64,000 bases of DNA from a virus. The stretch spans positions 1 to 64,000 of the IMG/VR virus record IMGVR_UViG_3300025660_000005, one strand, 5' to 3'. Shown in pieces: positions 37,403 through 63,799 of this stretch (position 1 is its first letter; the number at the start of each line of letters is the position of its first letter). The position numbers and the translations under genes were made by a program. A model generated the notes under the pieces. The model searched no databases and was not told the DNA's origin. It worked only from the letters and a program-made list of their open reading frames with translations.

Positions 37403-37411
37403 CTTTCATAC

Positions 37412-38100: not shown

Positions 38101-38106
38101 CCTTCT

Positions 38107-38180: not shown

Positions 38181-38219
38181 CTGATCGGTATAGTTCCCCG
38201 GACAACAAGGGGGAACGAC

Positions 38220-38692: not shown

Positions 38693-38696
38693 CTTT

Positions 38697-38785: not shown

Positions 38786-38793
38786 ACTTACTT

Positions 38794-38878: not shown

Positions 38879-39011
38879 TGACCACTGAGGGCACGCACTA
38901 CCCCGCAAGGGATGTGAGGAAGCTCGGGACACCACTGCTGAAGGAAGGAGGCCGTAGGCCGTTCGCACTTCCGAGGGTGCAACCCAAACAGGAACGTGGT
39001 ATCTTTGGCCT

Positions 39012-39647: not shown

Positions 39648-39727
39648 GCAGCGCTATGCGGACGGGTAGGGGCCACTAGATGAATGTGTCCATAAAACAG
39701 GATCCCGGCTACGGGTGGTCATCCTTT

Positions 39728-39757
39728 GCGACCGTGGTGAAACGGTAGACACGCCGG
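39728..39757 (+). tRNA. tRNA-Leu(TAG), 5' half of a split gene
   Basis: GCGACCG acceptor strand, D-arm and CCGG of the anticodon stem, then interruption. The matching half lies at 40364-40415. Rejoined, the halves give a canonical Leu tRNA with a CTTAGAA loop. Confidence 0.7.
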
Positions 39758-39789
39758 TTCCGGTTGCTAGCCTATACCGTAAGCTGTGT

Positions 39790-40290: not shown

Positions 40291-40364
40291 GTGGCGGAAC
40301 GGTAGACGCACCCGTTTTAGAGGCGGGCGCTTAGGGCGTGTGGGTTCGACTCCCACCTCAGCCA
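40285..40364 (+). tRNA. tRNA-Leu(TAG), complete copy inside the insertion
   Basis: Acceptor GGCTGAG/CTCAGCC, loop TTTAGAG in CCCGT/GCGGG, long variable arm, T-loop TTCGACT. It overlaps the HNH stop codon, and its final A joins the 3' half of the split tRNA. Confidence 0.88.
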
Positions 40365-40415
40365 CTTAGAATCCGGTGCCTTTGAGGCGTGGGGGTTCGA
40401 CTCCCCCCGGTCGCA
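40364..40415 (+). tRNA. tRNA-Leu(TAG), 3' half of a split gene
   Basis: ACTTAGAATCCGG anticodon side, variable arm, T-arm and CGGTCGC acceptor strand pairing with GCGACCG at 39728. Confidence 0.7.
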
Positions 40416-40419
40416 CTTT

Positions 40420-40491
40420 GCCGATGTAGCTCAATGGTAGAGCAGCCGTTTCGTAAGCGGCAGGTTGTCGGTTCGATTCCGACCTTCGGCT
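40420..40491 (+). tRNA. tRNA-Thr(CGT)
   Basis: Acceptor GCCGATG/CTTCGGC with one mismatch, loop TTCGTAA in GCCGT/GCGGC, T-loop TTCGATT. Confidence 0.85.
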
Positions 40492-40495
40492 CTTT

Positions 40496-40528
40496 GCTAG
40501 CGTGGCTCAACGGTAGAGCACCTGATTT
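40496..40528 (+). pseudogene. truncated tRNA, 5' half only
   Basis: GCTAGCG acceptor strand, D-arm and 5' anticodon stem stop abruptly at the start of the next tRNA. No 3' half with CGCTAGC was found next to a T-arm. Confidence 0.6.
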
Positions 40529-40600
40529 GCCCAGTTAGCTCAAGTGGCAGAGCAGCGGATTTGTAACCCGCTGACATCGGTTCGACTCCGGTACTGGGCT
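40529..40600 (+). tRNA. tRNA-Thr(TGT)
   Basis: Acceptor GCCCAGT/ACTGGGC, loop TTTGTAA in GCGGA/CCCGC, T-loop TTCGACT. Confidence 0.88.
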
Positions 40601-40618
40601 CTTGTCTGATTCAAGCAT

Positions 40619-40691
40619 GCCAACGTAGCTCCAACGGTAGAGCACTTGCATGGTAAGCAAGGGGTTACGGGTTCGATTCCCGTCGTTGGCT
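40619..40691 (+). tRNA. tRNA-Thr(GGT)
   Basis: Acceptor GCCAACG/CGTTGGC, loop ATGGTAA in CTTGC/GCAAG, T-loop TTCGATT. Confidence 0.88.
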
Positions 40692-40695
40692 CTAT

Positions 40696-40846
40696 GGGGG
40701 AGTGGTCAAAAGTCACGCTACTCGTTGTGACGACCTTATCCTGACCCCGGTCGGGAACTCTGTTGCGACTTCAGCAAGGTATAGACATCTGCCTGTAAAG
40801 CAGACCGCCCGAGAGGGCATTGTAGGTTCGATTCCTACCTCCCCCA
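40696..40846 (+). tRNA. tRNA-Tyr(GTA) with an approx 65-70-base insertion in the D-loop
   Basis: Acceptor GGGGGAG/CTCCCCC, loop CTGTAAA in TCTGC/GCAGA, variable arm and T-arm are normal. Between D-stem GTC (40705-40707) and GAC (40784-40786) lie 76 bases where about 8-10 are expected. The extra part contains the hairpin GTCAC/GTGAC. It may be processed out or the gene may be inactive. Confidence 0.65.
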
Positions 40847-40851
40847 CCTTT

Positions 40852-40924
40852 GCGCTCGTAGCTCAGTGGATAGAGTCCCGGCCTCCGAAGCCGGTGGTCC
40901 CCGGTTCAAGTCCGGGCGAGCGCT
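40852..40924 (+). tRNA. tRNA-Arg(CCG)
   Basis: Acceptor GCGCTCG/CGAGCGC, loop CTCCGAA in CCGGC/GCCGG, T-loop TTCAAGT. Confidence 0.9.
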
Positions 40925-40928
40925 CCAT

Positions 40929-41015
40929 GGAAGGGCAAGCAGATGGGCGACTGCACTGGTTTCGAAAACCAGCGAGCCTTAACCGGCCTTCGGGGTTCGA
41001 CTCCCCGTCCTTCCG
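40929..41015 (+). tRNA. tRNA-Ser(CGA)
   Basis: Acceptor GGAAGGG/TCCTTCC, loop TTCGAAA in CTGGT/ACCAG, long variable arm. Confidence 0.9.
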
Positions 41016-41018
41016 CCA

Positions 41019-41139
41019 AAGGCACCCCAGCCGGGGCTGTAGATCAGGGGTGTCCAAGACCACAGAGAAGCAGCACTTCTGGGAGGAGTGGGCGGCCAGC
41101 GGTAACCAACCCGTGGTTCCCTACGTGCTGGGGTGCTTT
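41019..41139 (+). ncRNA. structured RNA closed by a 13-bp stem
   Basis: AAG-GCACCCCAGC (41019-41031) pairs with GCTGGGGTGC-TTT (41127-41139), enclosing hairpins AGAAG/CTTCT and AACCA/TGGTT. It sits between two tRNAs with no coding potential. Not recognised as a known RNA. Confidence 0.55.
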
Positions 41140-41143
41140 CTAT

Positions 41144-41225
41144 GCTGTCGTGATGGAATGGTAGACATGCGGGTCTGAGAGGCCCGTGCCCTTGAGGTGT
41201 GTGGGTTCGAGTCCCACCGGCAGCA
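41144..41225 (+). tRNA. tRNA-Leu(GAG), copy 1
   Basis: Acceptor GCTGTCG/CGGCAGC, loop CTGAGAG in CGGGT/GCCCG, long variable arm. Confidence 0.85.
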
Positions 41226-41230
41226 CTCAT

Positions 41231-41317
41231 GCGACCGTGGCGGAATGGTAGACGCGCTGGCTTGAGGGGCCAGTGTCAACAATGACTGGCGTGAGGGTTC
41301 GAATCCCTCCGGTCGCA
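41231..41317 (+). tRNA. tRNA-Leu(GAG), copy 2
   Basis: Acceptor GCGACCG/CGGTCGC, loop TTGAGGG in CTGGC/GCCAG, long variable arm. Its acceptor is identical to that of the split tRNA-Leu. Confidence 0.85.
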
Positions 41318-41321
41318 CTTT

Positions 41322-41409
41322 GGAAGGGCAAGCCAATTGGTGATGGCAGCCGCTTGGAAAGTGGTCGAGCGTGATGAGCGCCTTGGGGGTTCGACTCCCC
41401 CTCCTTCCG
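41322..41409 (+). tRNA. tRNA-Ser(GGA)
   Basis: Acceptor GGAAGGG/TCCTTCC, loop TTGGAAA in GCCGC/GTGGT, long variable arm. Confidence 0.85.
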
Positions 41410-41434
41410 CCAACGAAGACCTACTGTTCAACTT

Positions 41435-41520
41435 GGAAGCGCCAGCCGACGTGGCGACGGCACCTGTCTTGAAAACAGGCGAGCTTTACGGCCTTGAGGG
41501 TTCGACTCCCTCCGCTTCCG
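41435..41520 (+). tRNA. tRNA-Ser(TGA)
   Basis: Acceptor GGAAGCG/CGCTTCC, loop CTTGAAA in CCTGT/ACAGG, long variable arm. Last tRNA of the cluster. Confidence 0.9.
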
Positions 41521-41521
41521 C

Positions 41522-41845
41522 CTACCGTGTCCCCGGCCTGCGGGGCAGGTTCTTCGGCTTCACGGCCTTCTCCGCCCCCAGCGCCTTCGCTACCTCGTCA
41601 GGGTCAATGCGCTTTGTATCGCATCCCTTCGTCCCACACCGGCACGTCTTGAGCGTGTCGACGGCCTCTCGGTCGTCCGGCTCTTCGATCCAGATCTGAA
41701 CCATCCTGATCCCGGCCTGCTTGCGGGTGCAGTTATGGACAACAGCCGCAGCCTCCAGCACGGTGGCCGCCTCGTAGGTGTTCTCAGGGAACCCCGGCTC
41801 CGGGAGTGACTTCTCGGTGAAACAGTCGACGGTGAACTTGGACAT
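41522..41845 (-). CDS. hypothetical protein, 107 aa, with a CxC..C cluster
   Basis: Not recognised. Contains TCRCGTKGC, a possible metal-binding knuckle, and a basic C-terminus. GGAGGGAGCC precedes the ATG. Its stop lies one base from the last tRNA on the opposite strand, so the two convergent units meet without a spacer. A GGTACAAT element about 30 bases upstream may be its promoter. Confidence 0.65.
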   Translation of the reverse strand: MSKFTVDCFTEKSLPEPGFPENTYEAATVLEAAAVVHNCTRKQAGIRMVQIWIEEPDDREAVDTLKTCRCGTKGCDTKRIDPDEVAKALGAEKAVKPKNLPRRPGTR

Positions 41846-41898
41846 GTGGGCTCCCTCCTACCCCCATTGTACCGGGGGCAAGAGGGAGAAGGATGGGA

Positions 41899-42222
41899 TT
41901 ATCCGTTCCAGCCGCTCGGGGCGGGGCAACCGTCCATGGACGCAGGGAACGCCTGGGGCGCTTCCGGTCCCGACTTGGGCTTGAGGGGCACGCCCCACGT
42001 CTCCAGCCGCTCACGGGTGGCGTAGCGCAGCGTGCAGACGAGTACCGGGGCGTCCGTGGCCTTGGTGAACGTGGTCTCGGTCGTGTGGAAAGAGACCTCG
42101 TGGCCGTACTTCGTGCCGACGTCCCGGAGGATGCCCCTGCTGGGTGCCTCGTCCTCGAAGCTGGCCGACGCCGCTGCCACCGAACACTCGGTGGAGCAGA
42201 GGCTGTCCTCGACGAAGTCCAT
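41899..42222 (-). CDS. hypothetical protein, 107 aa (may be part of a longer frame)
   Basis: An unrecognised protein with Cys in its first 15 residues and a Pro/Lys-rich tail. The ATG at 42222 has AGAGGAGC upstream. The same frame is open for 71 codons further up, with coding-like codon choice and a run of six His, back to the TGA of the MBL gene at 42436. That upstream part has no ATG, GTG or TTG in frame. The start at 42222 is therefore the simplest choice but not certain. Confidence 0.55.
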   Translation of the reverse strand: MDFVEDSLCSTECSVAAASASFEDEAPSRGILRDVGTKYGHEVSFHTTETTFTKATDAPVLVCTLRYATRERLETWGVPLKPKSGPEAPQAFPASMDGCPAPSGWNG

Positions 42223-42435
42223 GCTCCTCTCACCGATGGTGTTACACCCGTAGTCTACGGACTGGCCGCCTGCACCCTTCGTGGCGCTGCCGATGCCCTT
42301 GGAGGCGCTACGGCTGCGGCTGTGGCTACTGAGGGTGTTGTTACTACCCAGGAGGCTGCGGGTGCCCCACGGGTTGCCGTAGGTGTTGCCGTAGTTGTGG
42401 TGGTGATGGTGGTGAACCTCTAAAAAGTGAGGGGA
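42223..42435 (-). other. start-less open frame between MBL stop and the 107-aa gene
   Basis: 71 codons in one frame, ending in Met at 42222. The reading includes six His, then NYGNTYGNPWG-like repeats and a Ser/Arg-rich stretch. Third codon positions are strongly G/C as in real genes here. It could be read only by passing the TGA at 42436-42438 or by an unusual start. Confidence 0.4.
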
Positions 42436-43434
42436 TCAGAGATCGTAGACGTTGCCTTCACGGGCGAAGTCGACCCGGCCCCGGAACATCGCCCCAAGGG
42501 CATAGTCCTGTGCGTGGGCTTCCATCTCCCGGAGCTTGTCGTCGTCGTGCTTGGGGTCGTGGTGGTGGATGAGGCAGAACTTGGCGTCGGAGTCCTTGGC
42601 CTGTTCGATGCAGGATTCAGGGGAACCGTGGCCGAAGCCTTGCTGCATGCCCTGAAGCTGCTGCTCCGTGTAGGCACCGTCCAGAACCATCAGGTCGGCG
42701 TTGTGGCCCAGCTTGGAGACCTTCTGGTTCGGGAACCGCAAGGGTTCCATGTCGTAGCAGAACGCCGCCTTCTTGCCCTCGTACTCGATGACCCAGCCGA
42801 GGCAGCCGTTCGGGTGCTCCAGCGGGACGGTCGTGATCTTGATCCAGTTCTCCGGGCCGCCAACGGGCCTGTCGCCCACCGTACTGGGGCCGTGGGGGAA
42901 CAGGGTGGCCTCGTCTTGCTCCTGACCCCTGTGCCATTCGTGGGCGTACCAGAACGCCTCGCTGAACTGGCGGTCATGGCTCTGGTACTCCTTGTGGGCC
43001 GGGAGAGACTCGTGGGCCACCGGGAAGTGCGGGTTGGACTGCTGATGGGACAGCATCGTCTCCACGACCGTCTTGGGGTGCGAGCCGTCCGCCAGCCGTT
43101 CCCCGCCCTCGTGACCGGAAGGCCGGAGACCGTGGAAGTGGAACGTGTTGTGGGCCAAGTAGAACGGGGTGCAGAACGGGAGCCCTTGGATGTGGTCCCA
43201 GTGGTAGTGCGTCAACAGGACGATGAAGTGCTGATGGGGGAACTCCTGTTCCACCCAACGCTTCATCAGTTCGTCCCCCAGGATGGAAACCCCAGAACCG
43301 CACCCGACGATGATCTTGAAAGGCCCTGCCTCGATGAAGAAGCAGTTGGTGTTGCCGCCAAACTCCACGGTGCTGAAGTCCTTACGGGACGGGGCCGGAA
43401 GCGAACCTCGGGAACCGAAGCATGTGATCTTCAT
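42436..43434 (-). CDS. MBL-fold metallo-hydrolase
   Basis: A 332-residue protein of the metallo-beta-lactamase fold: GSRGS opening, FGGNTNCF, the metal motif THYHWDH (75-81), and later His and Asp residues (CYDM; IHHHDP). The usual Asp-x-Gly-Thr-Gly after FGGNT is changed to GCGSG. Related enzymes hydrolyse cyclic nucleotides, phosphodiesters or RNA. A role in cleaving immune signalling nucleotides is possible but not shown. The ATG at 43434 follows GAGGAGG. A CGGGGTAGAGT element precedes it. Confidence 0.8.
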   Translation of the reverse strand: MKITCFGSRGSLPAPSRKDFSTVEFGGNTNCFFIEAGPFKIIVGCGSGVSILGDELMKRWVEQEFPHQHFIVLLTHYHWDHIQGLPFCTPFYLAHNTFHFHGLRPSGHEGGERLADGSHPKTVVETMLSHQQSNPHFPVAHESLPAHKEYQSHDRQFSEAFWYAHEWHRGQEQDEATLFPHGPSTVGDRPVGGPENWIKITTVPLEHPNGCLGWVIEYEGKKAAFCYDMEPLRFPNQKVSKLGHNADLMVLDGAYTEQQLQGMQQGFGHGSPESCIEQAKDSDAKFCLIHHHDPKHDDDKLREMEAHAQDYALGAMFRGRVDFAREGNVYDL

Positions 43435-43493
43435 GTGCGTCCTCCTCATCCACTCTACCCCGTGAGCCTACGCCATGCACCTACACGAAGTAG

Positions 43494-43522
43494 GCTTAGA
43501 GGATCCTTCTATTGGGTTGATG
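43494..43522 (+). promoter_or_regulatory. phage-type promoter before the tmRNA, GCTTAG-N17-TTGATG
   Basis: GCTTAG at 43494-43499, 17 bases, TTGATG; a TATAGA also lies at 43524-43529. A boxA-like GTTCTTTGAAAAC (43540-43552) follows just before the tmRNA. Confidence 0.55.
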
Positions 43523-43554
43523 GTATAGAAGGACACGCTGTTCTTTGAAAACTT

Positions 43555-43920
43555 GGGGGTGTACTGGTTTCGACTGGGGTGTACGAGGCTAAACGTTCGT
43601 TCCGAGTGCTGTCGGGCGTTACAGACGGCAAAGGCTTAATTGCCAACGAGACCCTTCCGATGCAGGCGGCAGCGTAGTCGAAAGACTGTGCTGGTGCTTC
43701 ATTCTCACGTCAGAGCACCCGATTCGGGGCGTGAGGTTACAGCAGAAACGGGTTGGCGTTCAGGATAGCGGGCAGGCGGCTACCTGAAGGCGATGACTAA
43801 CAGCAGCATGTGCGTTGAGGATCGAAGCACCTTGCCCGTGCGGGATAAACACGGGAAATGAGCGTAGTGCGTTGGCGTAGGCATCTTAGGACCGGGGTTC
43901 GATTCCCCGCACCTCCACCA
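43555..43920 (+). ncRNA. ssrA: transfer-messenger RNA (tmRNA), tag ANETLPMQAAA
   Basis: One-piece tmRNA. The tRNA-like ends pair GGGGGTG (43555-43561) with CACCTCC, ending ACCA; GGTTTCGAC follows the 5' end and the T-arm is GGGGTTCGATTCCCC. The tag frame begins GCC at 43642 and ends TAG at 43675: ANETLPMQAAA. It rescues stalled ribosomes and marks the peptide for proteolysis. The tag ends Ala-Ala-Ala, where most bacterial tags end Leu-Ala-Ala. Confidence 0.95.
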
Positions 43921-47188: not shown

Positions 47189-47217
47189 ACCCAACCCGTC
47201 TGGAAGAAGGGCTAAGC
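47189..47217 (-). promoter_or_regulatory. phage-type promoter GCTTAG-N17-TTGGGT
   Basis: GCTTAG (47217-47212), 17 bases ending GGG, TTGGGT (47194-47189). A weaker -10 than the TAGANN sites. Confidence 0.5.
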
Positions 47218-47218
47218 C

Positions 47219-53711: not shown

Positions 53712-55124
53712 ATGTCTCACAAGTACGACATCCACTGGCTGACTGACAACTGCTGTGTCCTGCCCGCACGGGCCGGGATGCGGTGCGACGTCACAGCTTT
53801 CCTCACCAAGGAACTATGGGAGGCCACCGAAGAGGGGCTCTGGGCACAGGCTGTACAGGCCGCATCCTACAAGGGTGTGACTCACGCCTTCCTGATGCCG
53901 GACACCCACTTCGGGTTCGGGGTTCCCATCGGCAGCGTCATCGTGACCGACGACACGCTGGTCCAGTCAGGCTCCGGCTACGACATCTCGTGCGGCGTCC
54001 TCTACATGAAGACGAGCCTCAAGGCGGCGGACATCGTCGATCCGGCCAAGCGGCTGGAGTGGATTCATGCGGTTGAGGAGCGTGTAGCCACGGGCCTCGG
54101 TTCGCACCGTCCGGTCAAGATGCCGACCTACGGGTGGACGGACGTGCAGGAGATGCTTGCCCACGGCGGAGAGCCGGTGGGTGTCACGGCGGACGAGTGC
54201 GAGCGTGTCTTCATGCGTGTGGACACGGCGCACTTCAAGGCCAACCGCATCGACCGGGCGTGGCCGAAGGCCGTCCCGCAGATGGGATCCCTCGGTGGTG
54301 GGAACCACTTCATCGAGATGCAGGTAGACCCGACGGACTCCTCTGTCTGGCTGATGCTGCACTGCGGCTCCCGTGGGTACGGGTGGCACACGGCCAACCA
54401 CTACTTCTACGAGGGTGCCCGATTGCGGTGCCTCCAGTCCAAGCGACGGGAGGAGTCCTACCTCCGCATGGACGAGGATCTCGGGAAGGAGTATTGGGCG
54501 CACCACAACTCGGCGGCCAACTACGCCATCGCCAACAGGCACGTCATAGCCAGAGGGCTGGCGGACGCCACGGCGACGGTGTTCGGAGGGGCTGAGTCTG
54601 AGACCCTGTACGAGATCAGCCACAACCTGATCCAGCAGGAGCGCATCTACCTGCCGGACGGTTCGCTGACGGAGGGCTTCGTTCACCGCAAGGGGGCGAC
54701 CCGTGCCTTCCCGGCTGGACACCCGGATCTCGCCCGCACGAAGTGGGCTGAGACGGGCCACCCGTGCTTGATCCCCGGTTCCATGAAGGACGGGGCTGCG
54801 ATCCTGTTCCCGCTCTCCGGGACGAGGAAGACGGGCTGCTCCGTCAACCACGGGGCCGGACGGCTCATGGGACGTGGGGAGGCCAAGCGTGAGCTTCGGG
54901 CAATCCACGATGAGATCGACGAGGAGATGCGGGACGCCCGTGTCGTCTGCGCGGACGGAACCATCGTCGAGGGCATCGTCATGAACTCGGAGCGGACGCC
55001 GCTGGACGAGTGCGGCCACGCCTACAAGGATCTCAACGCTGTGCTCCGGGTGTTGGAGGACGAGGGCATCGCCAAGATGACCCTGCGCCTGTTCCCGGTC
55101 GCCAACCTCAAGGGGCTGGAGTAA
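53712..55124 (+). CDS. rtcB: RtcB-type RNA ligase
   Basis: A 470-residue RNA ligase joining 2',3'-cyclic phosphate (or 3'-phosphate) to 5'-OH ends. Metal and GTP-binding motifs are intact: PDTHFGFGVPIG, GSGYDISCG, GGGNHFIE, LHCGSRG, and the guanylylated His in VNHGAGRLM. It would repair tRNAs cut by host defence nucleases, complementing the phage's own tRNA set and Pnkp. The start has CGAGGAGGG upstream; its stop overlaps the next gene (TAATG). Confidence 0.95.
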   Translation: MSHKYDIHWLTDNCCVLPARAGMRCDVTAFLTKELWEATEEGLWAQAVQAASYKGVTHAFLMPDTHFGFGVPIGSVIVTDDTLVQSGSGYDISCGVLYMKTSLKAADIVDPAKRLEWIHAVEERVATGLGSHRPVKMPTYGWTDVQEMLAHGGEPVGVTADECERVFMRVDTAHFKANRIDRAWPKAVPQMGSLGGGNHFIEMQVDPTDSSVWLMLHCGSRGYGWHTANHYFYEGARLRCLQSKRREESYLRMDEDLGKEYWAHHNSAANYAIANRHVIARGLADATATVFGGAESETLYEISHNLIQQERIYLPDGSLTEGFVHRKGATRAFPAGHPDLARTKWAETGHPCLIPGSMKDGAAILFPLSGTRKTGCSVNHGAGRLMGRGEAKRELRAIHDEIDEEMRDARVVCADGTIVEGIVMNSERTPLDECGHAYKDLNAVLRVLEDEGIAKMTLRLFPVANLKGLE

Positions 55125-55327: not shown

Positions 55328-55588
55328 ATGACGAAACTCCAAAGGACGGCCTGCGCCTGTCTGTTCGGGCTAGTTGTGTGCGGTGTGGTGCTGGCCATGA
55401 TCGTCACCGGCTTCATGGCTGGTGCGGAGGCCGGGATCGAGATCACCATGAACACCAACATGGCGTCCGAGAACCTTGAGGCCCGGTACTATTACGCCCG
55501 AGGCATCCTGTTCGGTATCGTAGCCATGACCCTCTGGTGGCGTTTAGTGGAACCCCGGCTCCTGAGATGGATCCGAAACGGAGACTAG
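55328..55588 (+). CDS. two-span membrane protein, 86 aa (holin-like topology)
   Basis: Two hydrophobic segments (about residues 10-32 and 58-77) with a short polar loop and a basic tail. Small two-span proteins often serve as holins, but no family is recognised and no endolysin is adjacent. GAGGTG precedes the ATG. Confidence 0.6.
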   Translation: MTKLQRTACACLFGLVVCGVVLAMIVTGFMAGAEAGIEITMNTNMASENLEARYYYARGILFGIVAMTLWWRLVEPRLLRWIRNGD

Positions 55589-55589
55589 C

Positions 55590-56591
55590 ATGACGGACAA
55601 GGGTAACGGGAACGGGAACGGGAACGGCAAGATCATCACCCTGTTCCCTGAGATGGGCGGCGCTCCGAAACAGGCCGCCCCGCAACAGTTCAACCTGACC
55701 ATTGGATGGAACCCTGCGTTGGGCTCCGTCATGGTGTCCTTCGACGAGTCCGTTCGGGGGTTCGGCCTCCGGTCGGACGACGCCGAACGTCTGGCGAAGA
55801 CCATCCTGTCCCACCTCCAGTTCAAGGAACTCCCGTTCCACCGGACGGCTCCCCCGCTCCCCGTGGACGCCCCTCTCCGCAAGGCAGAGGTCGAGTGGCT
55901 GATGGAGCACCCCCTGTGGACGTACCCTGTCGAGATGCGCTGCCCGCCCGAGGGAGGCAGCTACTTCGGGGACCCCATTGAGATCGGGGACGTCGACAAG
56001 TCCGGCCACAAGGTCGTTTCGGCGGAGCCGGACTCGGAGGGCGTGCTCAAGGCCGTCCCCATGCTGTTCGACGGCCCGGACTGGCAGGACGAGGTACACC
56101 GGATCGGCGGCGGGTTCTACGAGTCCGTTGAGACCACCTTCCACCACGTCGACCCGCTGGCGGAGCGCATCCACGACGAGCTTTCCGACGGCGTGGACGA
56201 CCCCCGCAACAATGCGTCCCGTGTCTGGGTCGAAGCCGGAGGCTGGTACGACCGCTCCGAGGACGACAACGAGATGATCCCGGAGGAGGGGTGGAACAAG
56301 TACAACCGCTGGCAGTCCTGTCACGACATCCGCCTCGACTGTGGCGGCCCGGACTGGGAAACGGCTCTGATGGAACTCGCCCGCCTCGTCCGGTTCTTCT
56401 ACCACGACGACGGCACCGAGAGGGCAGAGGCCCCCGAGAAGTGCGAGGGCTCCTTCGAGAACGATGATGCCATGAATGGGGACTGGATCTCGGCCTGTGA
56501 GGACGACGGGGACGGGTTCTGCAAGACGTGTGGGTATGTCATGGGGTGGCACGAGAGCACCCCTGATGAAGACAAAAGTGAAGATGCCTGA
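55590..56591 (+). CDS. hypothetical protein, 333 aa
   Basis: Unrecognised. The N-terminus has four GN dipeptides in a row (low complexity), the core is acidic alpha/beta, and the C-terminus carries Cys residues (CEGSF, CEDDGDGFCKTCG) that could form a metal knuckle. Confidence 0.6.
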   Translation: MTDKGNGNGNGNGKIITLFPEMGGAPKQAAPQQFNLTIGWNPALGSVMVSFDESVRGFGLRSDDAERLAKTILSHLQFKELPFHRTAPPLPVDAPLRKAEVEWLMEHPLWTYPVEMRCPPEGGSYFGDPIEIGDVDKSGHKVVSAEPDSEGVLKAVPMLFDGPDWQDEVHRIGGGFYESVETTFHHVDPLAERIHDELSDGVDDPRNNASRVWVEAGGWYDRSEDDNEMIPEEGWNKYNRWQSCHDIRLDCGGPDWETALMELARLVRFFYHDDGTERAEAPEKCEGSFENDDAMNGDWISACEDDGDGFCKTCGYVMGWHESTPDEDKSEDA

Positions 56592-56602
56592 CCCTCGGGG
56601 GG

Positions 56603-56631
56603 CTTAGCCCTTTCGTGGTTCGGGTAGAGAT
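56603..56631 (+). promoter_or_regulatory. phage-type promoter GCTTAG-N17-TAGAGA for the ABC-OmpA operon
   Basis: GCTTAG (56603-56608), 17 bases ending GGG, TAGAGA (56626-56631), about 20 bases before the first gene of the operon. Confidence 0.75.
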
Positions 56632-56651
56632 AGAGCAAGAGGAGGTGCCTG

Positions 56652-57368
56652 ATGGCCGGTGAAGAGAAAAAGAAGGGCGGGTTCCTGTCCATGTTCGTGG
56701 ACTACGACACGGAAGAGACCCCCGACGATGCGACCGACGTGACCGAGGTCGCCGCTCCTGCGGTGTCCGATGACCCGCTGGCAGCCTTCACGGCTACCCC
56801 AACGGCACCCGTAGAGGCGGCACCCGCCGCCCCGGCAGCGCCTCCGGCCCCCAAGCGGACAGCGTTGGACTGGACGCTCGACGAGGTCTTCGCCGCAGGC
56901 AAGGTAGGCACCGGGGCGAACTCGGCCCACACCGTCCTCACCCTGCTGGACAACCTCGCACAGTTCCCCGAACCGCAGCGCCTCGCCATGATCCGGGCGA
57001 TGGACGCCGCCGACGACGCATGGGACGAGCCCACGGTCAAGGCGGACGCTGAGAAGCGTGTCAACGTCCTGCGCCAGTACGGATCCTTCATCGACAAGGA
57101 CGTAGCCACCCGCTGTACGGCGATCCAGAGCCAGTTCGAGGGCCTGAAGACCAGCAGCGATGACCGCATCAAGGCGCTTGAGGCGCAGATCGCCGCCCTC
57201 CAGTCCGAACGTGAGCAGGTGATGCAGGACATCTCCGAGTCTCAGGTTTCGGCCAAGGACAGGGCGGCAGCGGTGACCAAGCGTGGCGAGGATGCCAAGG
57301 CCGCAGCGGCCAAGGAAGGCGTCCGTTACACCAAGCTCGTGACTTTCTTCGGCCAGCAGAAGGGCTAG
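56652..57368 (+). CDS. coiled-coil protein at the head of the ABC-OmpA operon
   Basis: A 238-residue cytosolic protein. An acidic N-terminus is followed by an Ala/Pro-rich linker (about 45-70), a helical domain (75-150) and a coiled coil (150-225). No family recognised. The gene is preceded by AGAGGAGG and the promoter at 56603. Its place suggests it works with the transporter. Confidence 0.65.
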   Translation: MAGEEKKKGGFLSMFVDYDTEETPDDATDVTEVAAPAVSDDPLAAFTATPTAPVEAAPAAPAAPPAPKRTALDWTLDEVFAAGKVGTGANSAHTVLTLLDNLAQFPEPQRLAMIRAMDAADDAWDEPTVKADAEKRVNVLRQYGSFIDKDVATRCTAIQSQFEGLKTSSDDRIKALEAQIAALQSEREQVMQDISESQVSAKDRAAAVTKRGEDAKAAAAKEGVRYTKLVTFFGQQKG

Positions 57369-57434
57369 GCCGAAGGTGCCTGCCGGGAATGACCCCGGTA
57401 CGGTGAGACAGACAATTCGCAAGGGAGGTTCGAG

Positions 57435-59120
57435 ATGAAGCTCAAGCCGATGGGAAAGATCCTGCTCGTCCTAGTCGTCGCGGGAGCGGCGGCGGGTGCG
57501 TACTTCGGGTTCTTCCACGAGTCCACGACCGAGACGGCGACCGCCACCGCTCCGGCGACGGCGACCGCCACCACGACGCAGCCTGCGGCTGTGACCCCCA
57601 CGACGACCCCCGGTGCGGTGGCGGGTGTCCAGGCCCCTGCGGCGATCAAGCCGACCGGCGTCCAGCCCAAGACCCACTACAAGGTGGCCCTGTCGCAGTG
57701 GCCCGGTCACATGGCGGGCATCATCGCCTGCGGCGGCCTGACGACGCAGCCGGGTTCCATCTGTGCCAAGGAGGGGATCCAGCTTGAGTTCGTCTTCATC
57801 GAGGAGCCGGACAAGAAGAACGCTGCCCTCCAGTCCGGCGAGGTCGACTTCACTTGGCAGGTGGTCGACGAGATGCCCCTGAACATGCCCGGTTACGCAC
57901 GCTCCGGCGTCGAAGCGCAGGCGTTCGTCCAGATCGACTGGTCCCGTGGCGGTGACGCCTGTGTGGCAGCGGCCAACGTGAAGACGCCCCGTGATCTGCT
58001 GGCCAGCCGTGGCGCAGCCATGATGAAGTTCAGCCCCGACCACACGGTCTACGAGTTCTGGATCAACAACAGCGACCTGAACCCGCAGGAAGTGCGGCAG
58101 CTTCGCCAGCAGACCAAGTTCTCGATGGACTCATGGGAGTTCGGGCGCAACCTGTTCTGTCAGAAGCAGGTCGACGTGGCATGCCTGTGGGAGCCTGACG
58201 TGACGCTCGCCCTTGAGTGCCGCCCCGGTGCCCACCGTGTGTTCAGCACCAAGGACGCCGACACGCTGGTCGCCGACGTGCTGCTCGGTAAGAAGGACTT
58301 CCTCCAGCAGCAGCCCGAGATCGCCCGCAAGGTGGCGAAGATCTTCATGGAAGGTGCCAAGCTAGGTACGGCGGACAAGCCCGCAGCGGCCCGCCTGATC
58401 TCGACGGTCGTGCCCCGTTTCCGTGACGAACTCAAGTACGAGGGCACCCTCAAGGCGCTCAACTGGGTCCGCTGGAACGATCTCGGCGACAACACGTCCT
58501 TCTTCGGCCTCGGCGGGACTGCGCCCCTCTTCGACACGGTCTACAAGCAGGCGGACAGCATCTGGTCGGAGTACACGGAGCCTGACGGCACCCCGGTCCT
58601 CTCGCAGCGCTTCAGCGCCCACGGTCTGCGTACCGCAGCCATCGTGAAGCCCCTGTACGACGCTGAGATGGCCCGACGCCAGCAGGTCGCCGCCTCGTCC
58701 GGTGTGGCAGCGGTTCCCGTGGCAGCGGCGAAGCCGGTCTACAACCCGCAGGTCGCCAAGACGGCGGCACCCAAGCTGGTCAAGCCGGTGAGCATCCACT
58801 TCGACACGGGTGCCTACGCCATCGACACGCAGTCCCGCTCGATCCTGAAGCGTCAGGTGTTGCCGCAGTTGATGCTGGCGACGGCCATGAGCATCCGTGT
58901 CGAGGGCAACACCGACGACGTGGGCAGTGACAGCGGCAACAAGACCCTCTCGGGCAAGCGGGCGCAGGCGGTCGTTGACTACCTGATCTCGCAGGGCATC
59001 GACCCGGCCCGTATTGCGGCACAGGGCAACGGCGAGGACAACCCGCTCTGCGACCTGAAGACCCCCGACTGCCGTTCACGGAACCGCCGCACCGAGATCC
59101 TGTTCGTTTCGGCCAACTAG
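57435..59120 (+). CDS. ABC-importer binding protein fused to an OmpA domain
   Basis: A 561-residue protein: N-terminal membrane anchor (8-26), Thr/Ala-rich linker (30-78), a periplasmic binding-protein fold of the NMT1/SsuA/nitrate-taurine type (about 80-410; e.g. GEVDFTWQVV), an Ala-rich spacer, then an OmpA/MotB domain (about 445-560) with NTDDVGSDSGNKTLSGKRAQ split across its two motifs and NRRTEI at the end. It would bind an unknown small molecule while tethered to both inner membrane and peptidoglycan. It is followed by the permease and ATPase. Confidence 0.85.
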   Translation: MKLKPMGKILLVLVVAGAAAGAYFGFFHESTTETATATAPATATATTTQPAAVTPTTTPGAVAGVQAPAAIKPTGVQPKTHYKVALSQWPGHMAGIIACGGLTTQPGSICAKEGIQLEFVFIEEPDKKNAALQSGEVDFTWQVVDEMPLNMPGYARSGVEAQAFVQIDWSRGGDACVAAANVKTPRDLLASRGAAMMKFSPDHTVYEFWINNSDLNPQEVRQLRQQTKFSMDSWEFGRNLFCQKQVDVACLWEPDVTLALECRPGAHRVFSTKDADTLVADVLLGKKDFLQQQPEIARKVAKIFMEGAKLGTADKPAAARLISTVVPRFRDELKYEGTLKALNWVRWNDLGDNTSFFGLGGTAPLFDTVYKQADSIWSEYTEPDGTPVLSQRFSAHGLRTAAIVKPLYDAEMARRQQVAASSGVAAVPVAAAKPVYNPQVAKTAAPKLVKPVSIHFDTGAYAIDTQSRSILKRQVLPQLMLATAMSIRVEGNTDDVGSDSGNKTLSGKRAQAVVDYLISQGIDPARIAAQGNGEDNPLCDLKTPDCRSRNRRTEILFVSAN

Positions 59121-59130
59121 GAGGGCGATC

Positions 59131-60009
59131 ATGTCGGCCCACTCTGCGAAGTACATCTGCACGCCTACGACCGGGAGCATGCGCTATGTGCTCCCGGTCG
59201 CGGGGCTTGTCCTGTTCCTGCTGGCATGGGTAGCCGTGACCAAGCTTGAACTGGTGAATCCCAACTTCCTCCCTTCCCCCAAGGCAACCTTCGGGGCGCT
59301 GGCGGAAGCGTTCGTGGACGCACCCCCGCAGACACTCGTGGAGGGGACCAAGGGCGAATGGCGGGACATCCAGCCGGGGTGGGACACCTTCGTCCACTCC
59401 AGCGCAATCCAAGGGGCGGGCTTCAGCTTGAAGCGCATCTTCTTGGCGTTGTTTTGGGCGTGCCTGTTCGGGATCCCCATCGGGATCTTCATGGGGGCCT
59501 TCGGGTGGTTTGAGAGTCTGCTACAGGCCCTCGTGATGCCCATGCGGAACGCCCCGATCATGGCCTTCGCCCCGCTGTTCATCCTGATCTACGGGATCGA
59601 GGAGCAGATGAAGATCAGCTTCCTCGCCTTCGGCACCATCGTGTTCATTATCCCTGCGGCGTTTGACGCCGTGAGGAACGTGCCGCCCCTGATCATCGAC
59701 AAGGCGGTCGACATGGGGTTCCGCCCCATGGGAACGCTCTGGTACTACGTCCTGCCGTCAGCGCTGCCCCGTCTGTGGGACGGCATCCGCCTGTGTACGG
59801 GCGTAGCGTGGACGTACCTCGTAGCAGCGGAGGTGATGAACGTCACCACCGGCCTCGGGGCTATGGAAGCCAACGCACAGCGGTTCCAAAATACACCGAG
59901 GGTCTACGCTGCGATCCTCATTATCCTGATCCTCGGGGTGCTTTCCGACTACCTGTTCCGGGTCATCAAGAAGGTCGTCCCGATGTTGAACCAAGGGAGC
60001 GAAGCATGA
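59131..60009 (+). CDS. ABC transporter permease, SsuC/TauC-like
   Basis: A 292-residue membrane protein with about six helices. The EAA-type loop is AVDMGFRPMGTLWYYVLPSALP. It would form the channel for the imported ligand. It starts 10 bases after the binding-protein gene and overlaps the ATPase gene start (ATGA), so all three are cotranslated. Confidence 0.88.
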   Translation: MSAHSAKYICTPTTGSMRYVLPVAGLVLFLLAWVAVTKLELVNPNFLPSPKATFGALAEAFVDAPPQTLVEGTKGEWRDIQPGWDTFVHSSAIQGAGFSLKRIFLALFWACLFGIPIGIFMGAFGWFESLLQALVMPMRNAPIMAFAPLFILIYGIEEQMKISFLAFGTIVFIIPAAFDAVRNVPPLIIDKAVDMGFRPMGTLWYYVLPSALPRLWDGIRLCTGVAWTYLVAAEVMNVTTGLGAMEANAQRFQNTPRVYAAILIILILGVLSDYLFRVIKKVVPMLNQGSEA

Positions 60010-61037
60010 GCGGCACAGCGGACAACACCGGAGACGGACACGTCTCCATCGACGAGGCTTTCGCCGCACCCGCTGCCCCTGTGGCGGCTACCCCGGCTCC
60101 CGTTCCCGCCCCCGTGGCGGCCAAGGGCAGCGACCTGAAGCTGGACTTCAAGGGCTGCGGGCAGACCTTCAGGAACGACGGCGAACTGGTCGAGGTGGTC
60201 AAGGACATCACCTTCACGGTGGAGGGCAACCAGACCATCGCCATCCTCGGGCCGTCCGGCTGCGGCAAGTCCACCCTCCTGCGGATGGTGTCCGGCATGC
60301 ACCCCAGAGGCATTCGGATGCCGACGGTGGGCGAGTGCTGCATCAACGGAGAGGCCGTGCTGACCCCGCACGACGACGTCGTCACGGTGTTCCAGAGCCC
60401 TGTGCTGGTCCCGTGGCTGTCCGTGTTGGGCAACGTCATGCTCTCCTTCAAGCCGTTCCTGTTCGGCCCCCGGCCCCGTTGGCCCTGGGAGGTGGCGCAG
60501 GACTTCGTAGCGGCCATCGGTGACCGCTTTGAGGCCACCCGCCTGAAGATCCCGTGTTCGGATCCCTACAAGGAGATCGAGGCCAAGGCCATCACCCTGC
60601 TGAAAGAGGTCGGGTTGGGTGACTCCCTTCACCAGTTCCCGCATCAGCTTTCGGGTGGGATGAAGCAGCGGTGTAGCCTCGCTACCTCGCTGGTCGTTGA
60701 GCCCAAGATCCTGTGCATGGACGAGCCGTTCAGCGCCCTCGACCCGACGTCCAGCAAGGCGATGCAAGAGATCATCGTGCGCTTGCGGGACAAGTACCCC
60801 TGCCTTATCCTGTTCGTGACGCACAACGTGCGCCGTGCCCTCGATCTGGCCGACCGCATCATCGTGCTCTCCACCCGACCGGCTACCATCGCTGGCGACA
60901 TCCGACTGCCTGCGAACAGGCCGGAGGACTGGAAGCACACGCCGGAGTATGCCGGTCTGGAAGCCAAGATCCTGCACCTGATCAGTGACGCCTCAGAGGC
61001 TTCTGACAGTGGCGGTGAGTTGACCATCAGCGTTTAG
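60006..61037 (+). CDS. ABC transporter ATPase, SsuB/TauB-like
   Basis: A 343-residue ATPase with every catalytic motif: Walker A GPSGCGKST, Q-loop VFQSP, signature LSGGMKQR, Walker B ILCMDEPFSALD, and switch His in FVTHN. An Ala/Pro-rich N-terminal extension of about 40 residues is not typical of the family. A 45-residue insertion-like region lies between Q-loop and signature. It should hydrolyse ATP to drive import. Confidence 0.92.
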   Translation: MSGTADNTGDGHVSIDEAFAAPAAPVAATPAPVPAPVAAKGSDLKLDFKGCGQTFRNDGELVEVVKDITFTVEGNQTIAILGPSGCGKSTLLRMVSGMHPRGIRMPTVGECCINGEAVLTPHDDVVTVFQSPVLVPWLSVLGNVMLSFKPFLFGPRPRWPWEVAQDFVAAIGDRFEATRLKIPCSDPYKEIEAKAITLLKEVGLGDSLHQFPHQLSGGMKQRCSLATSLVVEPKILCMDEPFSALDPTSSKAMQEIIVRLRDKYPCLILFVTHNVRRALDLADRIIVLSTRPATIAGDIRLPANRPEDWKHTPEYAGLEAKILHLISDASEASDSGGELTISV

Positions 61038-61046
61038 GAGGCCCCC

Positions 61047-61982
61047 GTGTCCGATAAAACCCCCAACTACCGGATGGCCTTCCTGACGCATTGGCTCAAC
61101 CTGTCATTCCTCGCAGGAGGCATTGTCATCGGACTCGCCTCGGGTGGCATGACGGGGTTGTTCGTGGTGCTCGGGATTGAGGTCGCCTTCCTGTGGATCC
61201 TTCCCGACCTAGCCCTCGTCCAGCGGTTCCTCACGGTGACCGCCAAGACCGAGGACGTGGATGAGCAGCGCTGGTACTACCTCCGCTCCCTGTGGGGGTT
61301 GGAGCCTGATCAATCCCTTGGGTTCCTCGGTGCCGTGTTCGGTGTAGACGTGGCATGGCACCAGCTAGACCTGAACCCGGACAGCGGTTACCGGCGAGTC
61401 CGTAACCAAGACAGCACGATGGAGCACAAGCGGACGTTCCTGCGGATGTGCGAGGTCGTCCACGAACTCCGCAAGCTGCATGACGTTCGCAAGAGTTCGA
61501 TCTCCACCAGCCAGATCAGGAAGCTGGACGAGATGATCAACAACTGGCTGGCCCTGCACAACACGGCCAAGGATGCCAAGGCCGCCCTCCTCCGTATGGA
61601 CAAGGACAGCCTGCGGACGGAGTTCGGGCGTCTACGGGAACAGGCCGCAGAGGCCGACCCCAGCACCCGGATCGTGATCAGCGAGCGCCTCCGTACCCTG
61701 AAGTCCAAGGTGGAGTCGATCCCCAAGCTGGAACGCCGTGAGGGGCTGGCCGTGGCACAGGCCGAAGGCATCGCCCACCACATCGAGAAGGTGAACCAGC
61801 AGGTTCGGTCGGCGGGTATGGCCGACGTGTCCAGCAAGCTGCTCGACACCACGGTGGACAACCTCGTAGACGTGTCCGTCATTGACGACCTTGAGGTCAT
61901 CTCGGACACGAGGGACGCCCTTTCGGGCACCTCGATGGACGACGACGGCCTTTGGGAAGAGATCGGAGATGCCCTGAAATGA
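61047..61982 (+). CDS. two-span membrane protein with long coiled coil
   Basis: A 311-residue protein starting with GTG behind AGGAGG. Hydrophobic segments occupy about residues 12-32 and 36-58. From residue 65 on it is cytosolic, helical and rich in heptad-like stretches (about 120-260), with an acidic end. It may couple the transporter or membrane to a cytosolic partner. No family recognised. Confidence 0.65.
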   Translation: MSDKTPNYRMAFLTHWLNLSFLAGGIVIGLASGGMTGLFVVLGIEVAFLWILPDLALVQRFLTVTAKTEDVDEQRWYYLRSLWGLEPDQSLGFLGAVFGVDVAWHQLDLNPDSGYRRVRNQDSTMEHKRTFLRMCEVVHELRKLHDVRKSSISTSQIRKLDEMINNWLALHNTAKDAKAALLRMDKDSLRTEFGRLREQAAEADPSTRIVISERLRTLKSKVESIPKLERREGLAVAQAEGIAHHIEKVNQQVRSAGMADVSSKLLDTTVDNLVDVSVIDDLEVISDTRDALSGTSMDDDGLWEEIGDALK

Positions 61983-62239
61983 GTGCCCTTGGACGAGCCT
62001 TCCGCCGCCTGAAGAGGGTCATAAACCCCATCGACCGGGAGGTTTTCGAGTCCACCTCCACCAAGGTCGTTCGAGAGAACGGCGAGGTGACTGTCCTGCG
62101 TGTCAACGGCAAGGACATCGACCCGGAGAGCCCGGAGGGCAAGAAGGCCCTCGCAGCGTTCGACGAGTCCATGGCGGAGATGTCGAAGTCCTTGGATTCA
62201 ATGAGCCGGTCGCTCGACCGCATGTTTGATAAGGATTGA
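61979..62239 (+). CDS. small helical protein, 86 aa
   Basis: A basic N-terminal helix, a beta pair, and a C-terminal helix with regular Ser/Met/Leu spacing. It overlaps the previous gene (ATGA) and ends the operon. Unrecognised. Confidence 0.6.
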   Translation: MSALGRAFRRLKRVINPIDREVFESTSTKVVRENGEVTVLRVNGKDIDPESPEGKKALAAFDESMAEMSKSLDSMSRSLDRMFDKD

Positions 62240-62242
62240 CAG

Positions 62243-62971
62243 ATGGCTGATCCACACAACCCTGAGCGGTACGGCGAGTGCTGGCACCAGTACAAGATCG
62301 ACGCCTATGCAACGGACATGGAACCTCTCAAGCCCTTCGTCGTGTTCTCTGGCGGTTGGGCTTGGCACCTGCTCTCGCCCCCAGGCCACGCTGAACGCAA
62401 GCACGCCCACGATCACAAGGACGTGGACATACACTGCCCGAAGGAGGCAGTAGGCACCGTCATGGGCCTCCTGAGCGTCCTGGGGTACAAGAAGGTCAAT
62501 ACGAAGTACGACCGCCTGCCCAGCGCAGAGGACTTCCGCCGGTACGAGCGGGTCGTGGACGACAAGAAGCACCCGGAGTACCGCCTGACCATCGACTTCT
62601 TCGTCGGGGACTACCCCACGCTGGAGTTGCCTGACGGTTCGAAGGTCGTGCGGCCCGACGTCCTCCTGACCTTCTACGGGGAGATCCACTCCAGCGACAA
62701 GGCTTGGGCCGTGCTGGCAGCGACCAAGCTGTTCGAGAACGGAGAGACCCCGGAGAACTTCATCCACAGGGGCGACCTGTTGGCCTGTCCCGACCTGGAC
62801 GTGTACATCTGCACCAAGTGCGGGTGGACGGGGCAGTTCGTGGACGACAAGCCTGCCGTGGGGCCGAATCCGATCCACCCCGGCTGCAACTACATGGCTC
62901 ACCGCATGGGGAAGCCCTCTTTCCGACCCATGAGTGACCTACCAGGCATCCTCGCCAAGCTACGAGGCTGA
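62243..62971 (+). CDS. nucleotidyltransferase-fold protein with a zinc finger
   Basis: A 242-residue protein. VVFSGGWAWHLL (about 33-44) and HDHKDVDIHC (about 55-64) resemble the GG...hxDhD core of minimal nucleotidyltransferases. A CTKCGW...HPGC motif follows near residue 190. It may transfer nucleotides to a protein or RNA; the substrate is unknown. Confidence 0.6.
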   Translation: MADPHNPERYGECWHQYKIDAYATDMEPLKPFVVFSGGWAWHLLSPPGHAERKHAHDHKDVDIHCPKEAVGTVMGLLSVLGYKKVNTKYDRLPSAEDFRRYERVVDDKKHPEYRLTIDFFVGDYPTLELPDGSKVVRPDVLLTFYGEIHSSDKAWAVLAATKLFENGETPENFIHRGDLLACPDLDVYICTKCGWTGQFVDDKPAVGPNPIHPGCNYMAHRMGKPSFRPMSDLPGILAKLRG

Positions 62972-62972
62972 C

Positions 62973-63317
62973 ATGCCCAAACCCGGACACGACAAGAGAC
63001 ACAAGAAACCTCAGTGTTTCCCCCTGCCGCAGGACAAGGTACGAGCGCTCCGGGCAGATGAGGATGTGTGGGCCACTATCCAACACCCGAACACCGGGGA
63101 GACCCTGCGTGTCCGGTTCGCCAGCCACCCTCGGGTAGACTGGTTCGAGCAATCCTCCGTCTGCTACGTCCAAGACACCCACTACCAGGGCCCTGCCATC
63201 TTCCTGAAGGACGGCCTGATGCAGTTCGGGAACGGCGACGTCAAGCGTGTGTTCTCATCCTACTGCGGGTCTGTCATCGGGGTGGTCGTTGAGGAACACC
63301 CAAGGGAGAAACCATGA
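62973..63317 (+). CDS. hypothetical protein, 114 aa
   Basis: A basic N-terminal tail (HDKRHKKP), then a beta-rich domain. Unrecognised. The start at 62973 follows the upstream stop by one base; its stop overlaps the next gene (ATGA). Confidence 0.6.
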   Translation: MPKPGHDKRHKKPQCFPLPQDKVRALRADEDVWATIQHPNTGETLRVRFASHPRVDWFEQSSVCYVQDTHYQGPAIFLKDGLMQFGNGDVKRVFSSYCGSVIGVVVEEHPREKP

Positions 63318-63799
63318 TCACCCTTGAAACCATCGCACTAGCGGGTGGCCTGTTCGTCCCCCTCGTGTTCTGGCATTTCGTGGCCGACTGGCTGACCCAG
63401 ACCGAGAAGATGGCGGAGGCCAAGTCCCACAAGTTCGGGATTCTGGCGCTCCACTGCCTGATTTACTCCGTGATGTTCATCCCGGCTTTCTACCTGTACG
63501 GGCTGGAGTCGTGGGAGATGGTGTTGGGCTTCCTGCTCCTGTACGTCAGCCACTTCATCGGGGACACCTACCTCGTGGTGTTCCTGTGGGCGAAGTACCT
63601 CCGCCGCATGACTTCGATGCGGATACCGGAGGACGACGGCAGCTTCACGGGCACTGATGTCCAAGTCCCGACCGACATATTCCCCAACTATGAATTCATC
63701 ACGACCCCGCTCCTGTTCCGCCCGTCCCTCGTGCTGGTCATTGACCAACTATGGCATCTGGCCTTCCTCTGGCCTATCGTGGTGCTCGCCCTGTACTGA
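63314..63799 (+). CDS. DUF3307-like membrane protein
   Basis: A 161-residue protein with about four hydrophobic segments. The N-terminal FWHFVADWLTQTEKMAEAK, followed by a further HC in the next helix, matches DUF3307 (HxxADxxxQ...H). Function unknown. Confidence 0.65.
   Translation: MITLETIALAGGLFVPLVFWHFVADWLTQTEKMAEAKSHKFGILALHCLIYSVMFIPAFYLYGLESWEMVLGFLLLYVSHFIGDTYLVVFLWAKYLRRMTSMRIPEDDGSFTGTDVQVPTDIFPNYEFITTPLLFRPSLVLVIDQLWHLAFLWPIVVLALY

Follow-up and report, generated by a model that had tools for sequence, protein, structure and literature searches.

The stretch of DNA analysed here, 64,000 nucleotides of IMG/VR virus record IMGVR_UViG_3300025660_000005 (positions 1 to 64,000; hereafter the window), carries five genes for a binding protein fused to an OmpA domain (P0002), a permease (P0003), an ATP-binding cassette (ABC) ATPase (P0004), a soluble coiled-coil protein of a family labelled Nm (P0001), and a membrane-anchored coiled-coil protein (P0005). 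Sequence comparison indicates that these five parts form a module inherited across huge phages and some bacteria. We give about an even chance to the reading that the module works to import a small solute that bears an amine, and that it is held between the membrane and the wall and coupled to a membrane scaffold.

A reading of the window made from the sequence alone had described six co-directional genes with a complete importer at this place. All six genes were open and in the same direction at 56652-62239, the five of the module occupying 56652-61982, and the importer with its binding protein-OmpA fusion was borne out by Pfam matches and by a model of P0002. The sixth gene did not hold as part of the set. 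Among the loci compared, P0006 was found only in the window's own record and in a 100%-identical contig (L008), and it is therefore outside the conserved module.

Recurrence in huge phages and bacteria

When P0002 was searched with tblastn against 50,697 phage records, 30 records were matched. In 18 of them the match covered 80% of the query or more, and these included Bacillus phage G and Lak phages; LR756501 and LR756503 were matched over 72%. With a binding protein of the phage G type as query, at least 80% coverage was obtained in all 20 matched records: two of phage G (497 kb), 15 of Lak phages (540-552 kb), LR756501 and LR756503 (735 kb), and a 38-kb faecal fragment. A query of a further type (N-type) gave at least 80% coverage in 19 of 21 records, which were the same set minus the faecal fragment; the other two were partial Acinetobacter matches. 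Full gene sets were inspected in phage G, Lak-B4, Lak-A1 and LR756501, and the binding protein alone in the 15 listed Lak phages and LR756503.

Scanning IMG/VR with a profile yielded 50 loci on contigs of approximately 16-536 kb, several of them at least 350 kb. Removal of 11 redundant loci (L011, L022, L036, L037, L039, L040, L047, L048, L050, L053 and L056) left 39, which together with five loci from annotated phages made 44 viral loci, all chosen by their binding-protein gene. L142 was included in the tree described below and not in the 44-locus counts, and L068 was omitted from A7 because of a stop inside its stretch. Within 7 kb of the binding protein, the Nm family, to which P0001 belongs, was present in 43 of the 44 loci, a PspA-like protein or a P0005 relative also in 43 (40 and 3, respectively), the permease in 42, and the ATPase in 38. 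The two loci without permease (L023 and L057) both begin at a contig edge. The next most common gene family was present in at most six loci. Outside the window's class, the genes were ordered either as Nm, PspA-like, binding protein, permease, ATPase or as permease, ATPase, Nm, PspA-like, binding protein. The sequence-only reading had proposed to look for the gene order in other huge phages and bacteria. The gene set recurred in phage G, Lak phages, LR756501, the IMG/VR loci and Bacteroidota, and neither an order unique to this genome nor broken motifs elsewhere were found. In the phage G record itself, gp243, gp245, gp249 and gp250 are labelled as ABC-like transporter permease, ABC transporter and OmpA/MotB domain.

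For the cellular copies, 84,980 genomes were scanned and 232 relatives were obtained. Bacterial counts in this text refer to the best 80 of the 232, and the scan patterns were derived from a mostly N-type alignment, so that the bacterial sampling is biased. By record titles, 77 of the 80 belonged to Bacteroidota lineages, and some copies were located on long chromosomal contigs, such as one of 1.5 Mb in Aquimarina latercula. All five genes were present in 38 of the 49 bacterial loci with sufficient flank. In 23 of 80 bacterial loci, the binding protein is followed 1.8-3.5 kb downstream by a gene of an AAA+ family (AAA and AAA_lid_6 in the L083 member), and 14 of 80 contain a 2OG-Fe dioxygenase gene of one family (its L083 member being PF10014), which is a weak hint of an amino-acid-like substrate. 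In L083, the two genes follow the module at 11414-14213 (Pfam on L083), and such genes were also seen in L078, L096 and L120. The module looked sparse in cells: at E<=1e-45, one of 398 Pseudomonadota genomes and one of 296 Bacteroidota genomes were matched, in each case the centre itself, with at most a few candidates per genome fully scored. The Pseudomonadota locus, L064, is a 4.6-kb contig that groups with a Bacteroidales contig in the tree and may be mis-binned.

When 123 binding proteins (43 viral and 80 bacterial) were placed in a midpoint-rooted tree, the window formed its own clade with L009 and L010 (support 100), and the phage G type formed a second clade of 22 viral rows (100). The bacterial rows were placed together with 18 viral rows (the N-type and L142) in a third part (99). 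The labels of virus and bacterium required at least three changes on the tree, of which the starred branches forced only one. Because the label changes are weakly forced, the root was set at the midpoint and the bacterial sampling is biased, the tree gives no firm direction of transfer between phages and bacteria. Its deeper branches are covered more widely by the phage copies than by the sampled bacterial ones.

Receptor, transporter and coiled-coil partners

The AlphaFold2 model of P0002 (mean predicted local distance difference test score, pLDDT, 88.3) consisted of an N-terminal membrane helix, a TauA-type binding domain (approximately residues 78-405) and an OmpA domain (approximately residues 445-560). 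In structural comparison of the model, the binding domain matched TauA (6ssy) with Z 29.1 over 290 residues at a root-mean-square deviation (rmsd) of 3.1, and the profile match to TauA was 8.5e-14. The Pfam NMT1 match was weak (0.0019, under the cut-off). No full-length structural counterpart of P0002 was present among the 50 matches listed from a library of predicted viral structures.

According to the excerpted text of PMC6906117, the amine of taurine is held in TauA by Glu106, Thr132 and Asp205, and the sulfonate by Gln30 and main-chain groups of Gly61, Gly79 and Thr132, with Trp176 lining the pocket; taurine binding is abolished in TauA without Glu106, and SsuA is without Asp205. The index of the TauA chain was converted to this numbering with an offset of 21, which fits eight of 11 residues named in that excerpt (other offsets from 18 to 24 fit at most one). 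The pocket of P0002, for which structure prediction had been proposed on sequence alone, has the TauA-type fold, and at this offset Glu106, Asp205 and Trp176 of TauA align with D174, D281 and W252. The position of Gln30 is outside the alignment. Asp was found at the D174 position in all 43 viral and all 80 bacterial rows and at the D281 position in 42 of 43 and 80 of 80, and Trp at the W252 position in 36 of 43 and 80 of 80. Because D174 and D281 align with the amine-binding pair of TauA, the ligand of P0002 probably carries an amine; taurine itself is only a candidate.

The C-terminal domain of P0002 matched Pfam OmpA at 2.7e-17 and the OmpA-like structure 5m38 with Z 17.7 over 112 residues (rmsd 1.2). 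D494 of this domain was kept in all three window-class rows, all 17 N-type rows and all 80 bacterial rows, but in only seven of the 22 rows of the phage G type, and Arg509 was invariant across the rows. We take D494 and R509 to be the OmpA-domain residues that bind the peptidoglycan stem, and P0002 is predicted to bind peptidoglycan through this domain. The pattern of the two residues would fit an OmpA domain tuned to the wall type of the host. The sequence-only reading had the fusion fix the receptor across the envelope. The fusion is present; an outer membrane is not required, as the same fusion is found in phage G. The recorded host of phage G is Gram-positive, and therefore the fusion is not in general an outer-membrane device.

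P0003 matched BPD_transp_1 at 1.1e-14 in Pfam and TauC at 1.2e-33 in NCBIfam, the latter under the equivalog cut-off, and its nearest solved chains were CmpB and NrtB. P0004 matched ABC_tran at 6.7e-27 (Pfam). Its motifs, described earlier as intact, were indeed complete: Walker A GPSGCGKST, Q-loop VFQ, LSGGMKQR, CMDEP, SALD and the H-switch VTHN. In Lak-B4 (L005 12579-15233), a full ABC ATPase gene is followed 1.3 kb on by a second ATPase piece of 132 aa, which was not extended by reading TAG or TGA as an amino acid.

At 1e-8, a search with the permease matched 18 of the 50,697 phage records, and several of the 18 look like DNA of bacteria; by this search TauC-type importers look rare in phages. 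Permease matches in Acinetobacter phage MD-2021a, SA 1306 Kay and Y15 were not counted, being bacterial-looking by annotation for the first and by our judgement for the others. In INPHARED, MD-2021a (CAKLQH02/CAKLQF02) has scattered ssuC/tauC genes on several contigs, which look bacterial and are filed as phage. L153 (MT836268) had a binding protein, permease and ATPase with no Nm or PspA-like match, and it was not counted as a module. The permease query also led to an expanded importer locus in the 595-kb phage LR756511.1 (L152 5241-14172). Three binding proteins are encoded in this strand-uniform run, two of them OmpA-type (one of the two matches Pfam OmpA only weakly), along with a permease, an ATPase, a von Willebrand A protein and two proteins that could not be assigned; Cpn10-like and DnaJ genes come next. 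The run gave no match to the Nm or PspA-like profiles of the module. In plasmids there was one partial match, from Paenibacillus, with 25% identity over 58% of the query.

P0001 has a short N-terminal motif (GGFLSMFVDYDTEE), a disordered linker and a coiled coil, and most members of the Nm family have an N-terminal motif of the K-x-[LF]-x-x-[LF]-F-V-E type, an acidic run and a low-complexity linker. When a profile built from P0001 and its relatives in L009 and L010 was run against 1003 open reading frames (ORFs), it matched L010 itself and six others, all of the Nm family, five of the six at E <0.01 and one at E 1. P0005 has two hydrophobic spans at approximately residues 26-58, and its family was found in three window-class loci (L008, L009 and L010); an additional scan for relatives gave none new. 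P0005 had no PspA_IM30 match in Pfam. Elsewhere, the membrane partner of L004 matched PspA_IM30 at 7.8e-11, over the curated cut-off, and gp247 of phage G at 0.36 only, and the partners of LR756501, Lak-B4 and L009 gave no match. The two PspA-like clusters matched each other with an hhalign probability of 95.6%, which for coiled coils is supportive, not conclusive. Perhaps P0005 has the role that is held elsewhere by the PspA-like protein. Structure comparisons of P0005 were set aside: the best Foldseek E was 0.26, supporting no fold claim; VIA-align gave weak matches with Z <9, mostly to BAR-like bundles; and all of these, including the one row for the ESCRT-III protein CdvB2 (Z 6.9), were within the range that the tool calls common for helical models.

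The 4-nt overlaps of P0003 with P0004 and of P0005 with P0006, evident from their coordinates, suggest that each pair is translationally coupled. The sequence-only reading had placed all six genes under one phage promoter. A scan of 55400-63400 for sigma-70-like promoters found none against 1.1 expected. The start of the locus as given in that reading does fall on a bipartite motif ahead of P0001, which makes a single promoter possible: the motif occurs at four sites in the window against 0.01 expected by chance, with identical spacing, and all four lie at a gene end and upstream of an ORF on the same strand (Table 1). For the sites at 3408 and 34037, the preceding ORF stops at the TAG of the motif. 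GGCTTAGCCC occurs a fifth time at 52603, there without the second half. The motif could serve as a phage promoter or as a processing signal.

Table 1. Genes of the locus and sites of the bipartite motif in the window
Feature	Position	Strand	Length	Description
P0001	56652-57368	+	238 aa	Soluble coiled-coil protein of the module's Nm family
P0002	57435-59120	+	561 aa	Binding protein-OmpA fusion
P0003	59131-60009	+	292 aa	TauC/SsuC-like permease
P0004	60006-61037	+	343 aa from ATG at 60006	ABC ATPase
P0005	61047-61982	+	311 aa	Two hydrophobic spans and a helical coiled coil
P0006	61979-62239	+	86 aa	Small helical protein, outside the conserved module
GGCTTAGCCC-N10-CGGGT	56601-56625	+		Intergenic, ahead of P0001
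GGCTTAGCCC-N10-CGGGT	3384-3408	-		Gene end
GGCTTAGCCC-N10-CGGGT	34013-34037	-		Gene end
GGCTTAGCCC-N10-CGGGT	47194-47218	-		Gene end

Function of the module and competing explanations

If the module works as an importer, it would be placed in the host inner membrane upon infection, with the P0002 receptor tethered to peptidoglycan via its OmpA domain. It could then take up a small amine-bearing solute (taurine-like, aminophosphonate-like or another zwitterion), and the scaffold partner, P0005 in the window's phage, would organise or stabilise the membrane around the importer. The large and probably long-lived infected cell might thereby keep its envelope and its supply. The gene set is shared by phages of very different bacteria, which suggests that the host envelope is rebuilt or fed. 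The role of metabolite feeder, offered by the sequence-only reading, agrees with the intact importer; it is too narrow alone, as the module has five parts, among them a membrane-anchored partner that is in part PspA/IM30-like. More tentatively, the module could be a hallmark machine of megaphages in which an importer, an ESCRT-III-like scaffold and a wall tether were kept across host phyla (Bacillus, Prevotella and the window's host) for envelope upkeep and solute supply, with the PspA part replaced by another membrane coiled coil in the window class; we regard this wider claim as rather doubtful.

Several observations weigh against a working importer with a scaffold. The ATPase was absent near the modules of L028, L046 and L051, and L004 had none between its permease, which is close to the contig end, and its Nm gene; the other four parts were kept in all four loci. 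No ATPase was found elsewhere in these four records, which are fragments and were searched without a positive control, and none was recovered when they were reread with TAG as Q or TGA as W. In such loci, importer activity may be dispensable, or the ATPase may be borrowed from the host. In the pocket, Pro occupies the positions of TauA Gly61 and Thr132 in the window class, so that beyond the conserved residues the pocket is not that of TauA. Asn55, Asp84 and Ser109 of TauA, as named in the excerpt, do not fit the offset-21 numbering used for the mapping. As for the scaffold, no homology of P0005 to PspA-like families was detected (hhalign probability approximately 1%), and its model was poor (pLDDT 55, from an alignment of only three sequences). 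Among the members scanned with Pfam, the PspA_IM30 cut-off was reached by the partner of L004 only.

The main rival to the importer is a machine for envelope sensing and repair, in which the ABC parts are an ATP-driven sensor and motor instead of a feeder: the OmpA arm and the pocket would read the state of wall or solute, and the ATPase cycle would drive assembly or disassembly of a PspA/ESCRT-III-like scaffold that seals or remodels the membrane in a giant infection. In 43 of 44 viral loci the module is accompanied by a soluble coiled coil and by a membrane coiled coil, PspA-like or other, the few viral loci without ATPase retain the rest, and the AAA+ family stands downstream of 23 of 80 bacterial copies, all of which would suit such a machine, as does the link of membrane remodelling with solute transport proposed in the excerpted text of Ravi et al. 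(2024, mSystems, PMC11237479). The pocket acids, however, vary hardly or not at all, a constraint without purpose in a pure motor, and no ESCRT-III fold was shown for P0005. We consider this explanation possible and, on balance, unlikely. The sequence-only reading had also suggested a block to other phages, in which an altered envelope machine installed by the phage would stop the DNA entry or the receptors of rivals. The predicted location at membrane and wall would allow it, and Al-Shayeb et al. (PMC7162821, as excerpted) state that membrane-localised proteins of huge phages generally may affect susceptibility to other phages. PADLOC gave matches of the OmpA domain to ZorB (8.2e-9), of the ATPase to Mad3 (3.6e-29) and, weakly, of the coiled coils to DruG and BrxC. 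These, like the hits to PD-T4-6, Mad8, AriA, AbiLi and a Toprim-linked ATPase, were rejected as shared-domain or coiled-coil matches, and no whole defence or exclusion system was recognised in the profile and PADLOC scans. The same gene order is conserved on Bacteroidota chromosomes, and the pocket and the ATPase motifs are strongly constrained. We found no evidence in support of exclusion and regard it as quite improbable.

Least credible of all is that the genes are neutral or recent bacterial cargo, or that the contig is bacterial or chimeric, although host DNA is possible in IMG/VR contigs. The window's 73-kb record gave no terminase or sheath match, and just 10 other window proteins were scanned against PHROGs. 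In the searches for such markers, matches were obtained in 0 of 14 for Terminase_6C, 7 of 21 for Terminase_6N and 9 of 15 for phrog_2, presumably the terminase large subunit; for the sheath, 5 of 21 were at E<=0.001 and none over the cut-off. Against a bacterial origin, the 10 proteins included a helicase, a ribonucleotide reductase and a GroEL of phage-type families, the window has 17 tRNA genes and a tmRNA, and phage G, Lak phages and LR756501 also have the module in their genomes. Terminase-family matches were found in the records of L009 (536 kb; 1.5e-29, with one TAA inside) and L010 (402 kb; 8.5e-28), by which these relatives of the window are phages, and the window-class binding protein is a deep clade of its own.

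Other features of the window are the GroEL gene at 34031-35599 (phrog_5725, 4.1e-101), the long ribonucleotide reductase gene at 14451-17624 (phrog_367, 2.4e-121), and the tRNA and tmRNA genes at 37017-43920, the tmRNA with the tag ANETLPMQAAA. A protein that by eye is RtcB RNA ligase-like is coded upstream of the module in the window (53712-55124) and in L010 (5443-6867).

One importer type with the same partners is common to some of the largest phages although the envelopes of their hosts differ greatly. What such phages draw from the host envelope, or how they act on it, thereby becomes a testable question. The phages also offer a small gene set for studying a PspA/ESCRT-III-like scaffold joined to an ABC transporter, which in bacteria has only been predicted.

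Comparison with known systems

No account of a phage-borne module was found in searches of the open-licence PubMed Central (PMC) literature, and by term search it was absent from the main texts (without supplements) of PMC7824862, PMC7162821, PMC6784885, PMC8346664, PMC9723777 and PMC12607003.

With importers of the TauABC, SsuABC and NrtABC type, the importer of the window has in common the fold of the binding domain and the families of the permease and the ATPase; aligned with TauA, it also has equivalents of two pocket acids and the Trp. The receptor of TauABC and SsuABC is free, whereas that of the window has a membrane helix and the OmpA fusion; the further pocket positions have other residues in the window, and coiled-coil proteins are linked to its importer. 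The OmpA-like fold with its Asp/Arg pair (D494 and R509 in P0002) is shared with OmpA, Pal and TagL. The P0002 family differs from these by an Asn492 that is invariant in 43 of 43 viral and 80 of 80 bacterial rows, and canonical OmpA-like domains have His at the matching position.

Phage G has all five parts in gp243-gp250, co-directional as in the window. Unlike the window, the order is permease, ATPase, Nm, PspA-like, binding protein, the host is Gram-positive, and there are two tandem binding protein-OmpA genes, gp249 and gp250 (L002 8797-11999), which are paralogues in a single phage.

The closest known systems are the cellular operons predicted by Ravi et al. (PMC11237479), which in the excerpted text combine PspA or TM-Snf7 with AAA+, an ABC ATPase, a permease and PBPB-OmpA, the AAA+ component being one that 'may occur' and is not obligatory. 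The bacterial loci found here resemble these operons as excerpted, and 23 of 80 have the AAA+ family downstream; their membrane protein is assigned to PspA by profile comparison only, Pfam giving none for L083. PBPB-OmpA, permease and ABC ATPase are in one operon in the window as well. The AAA+ protein of L083 matched one of the 11 phage records searched, in gp596 of phage G, far from the module, and no match was found in the window's 73-kb record, which is a fragment. The excerpted operons are cellular and carry a TM-anchored PspA or Snf7, whereas the module described here is borne by huge phages and has the soluble Nm protein as a regular fifth member, and in the window the slot of the anchored protein is filled by the unrelated-looking two-span coiled coil P0005. 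The cellular kind is thus already known as a prediction, and the window carries a phage-borne variant of it with a class-specific membrane coiled coil.

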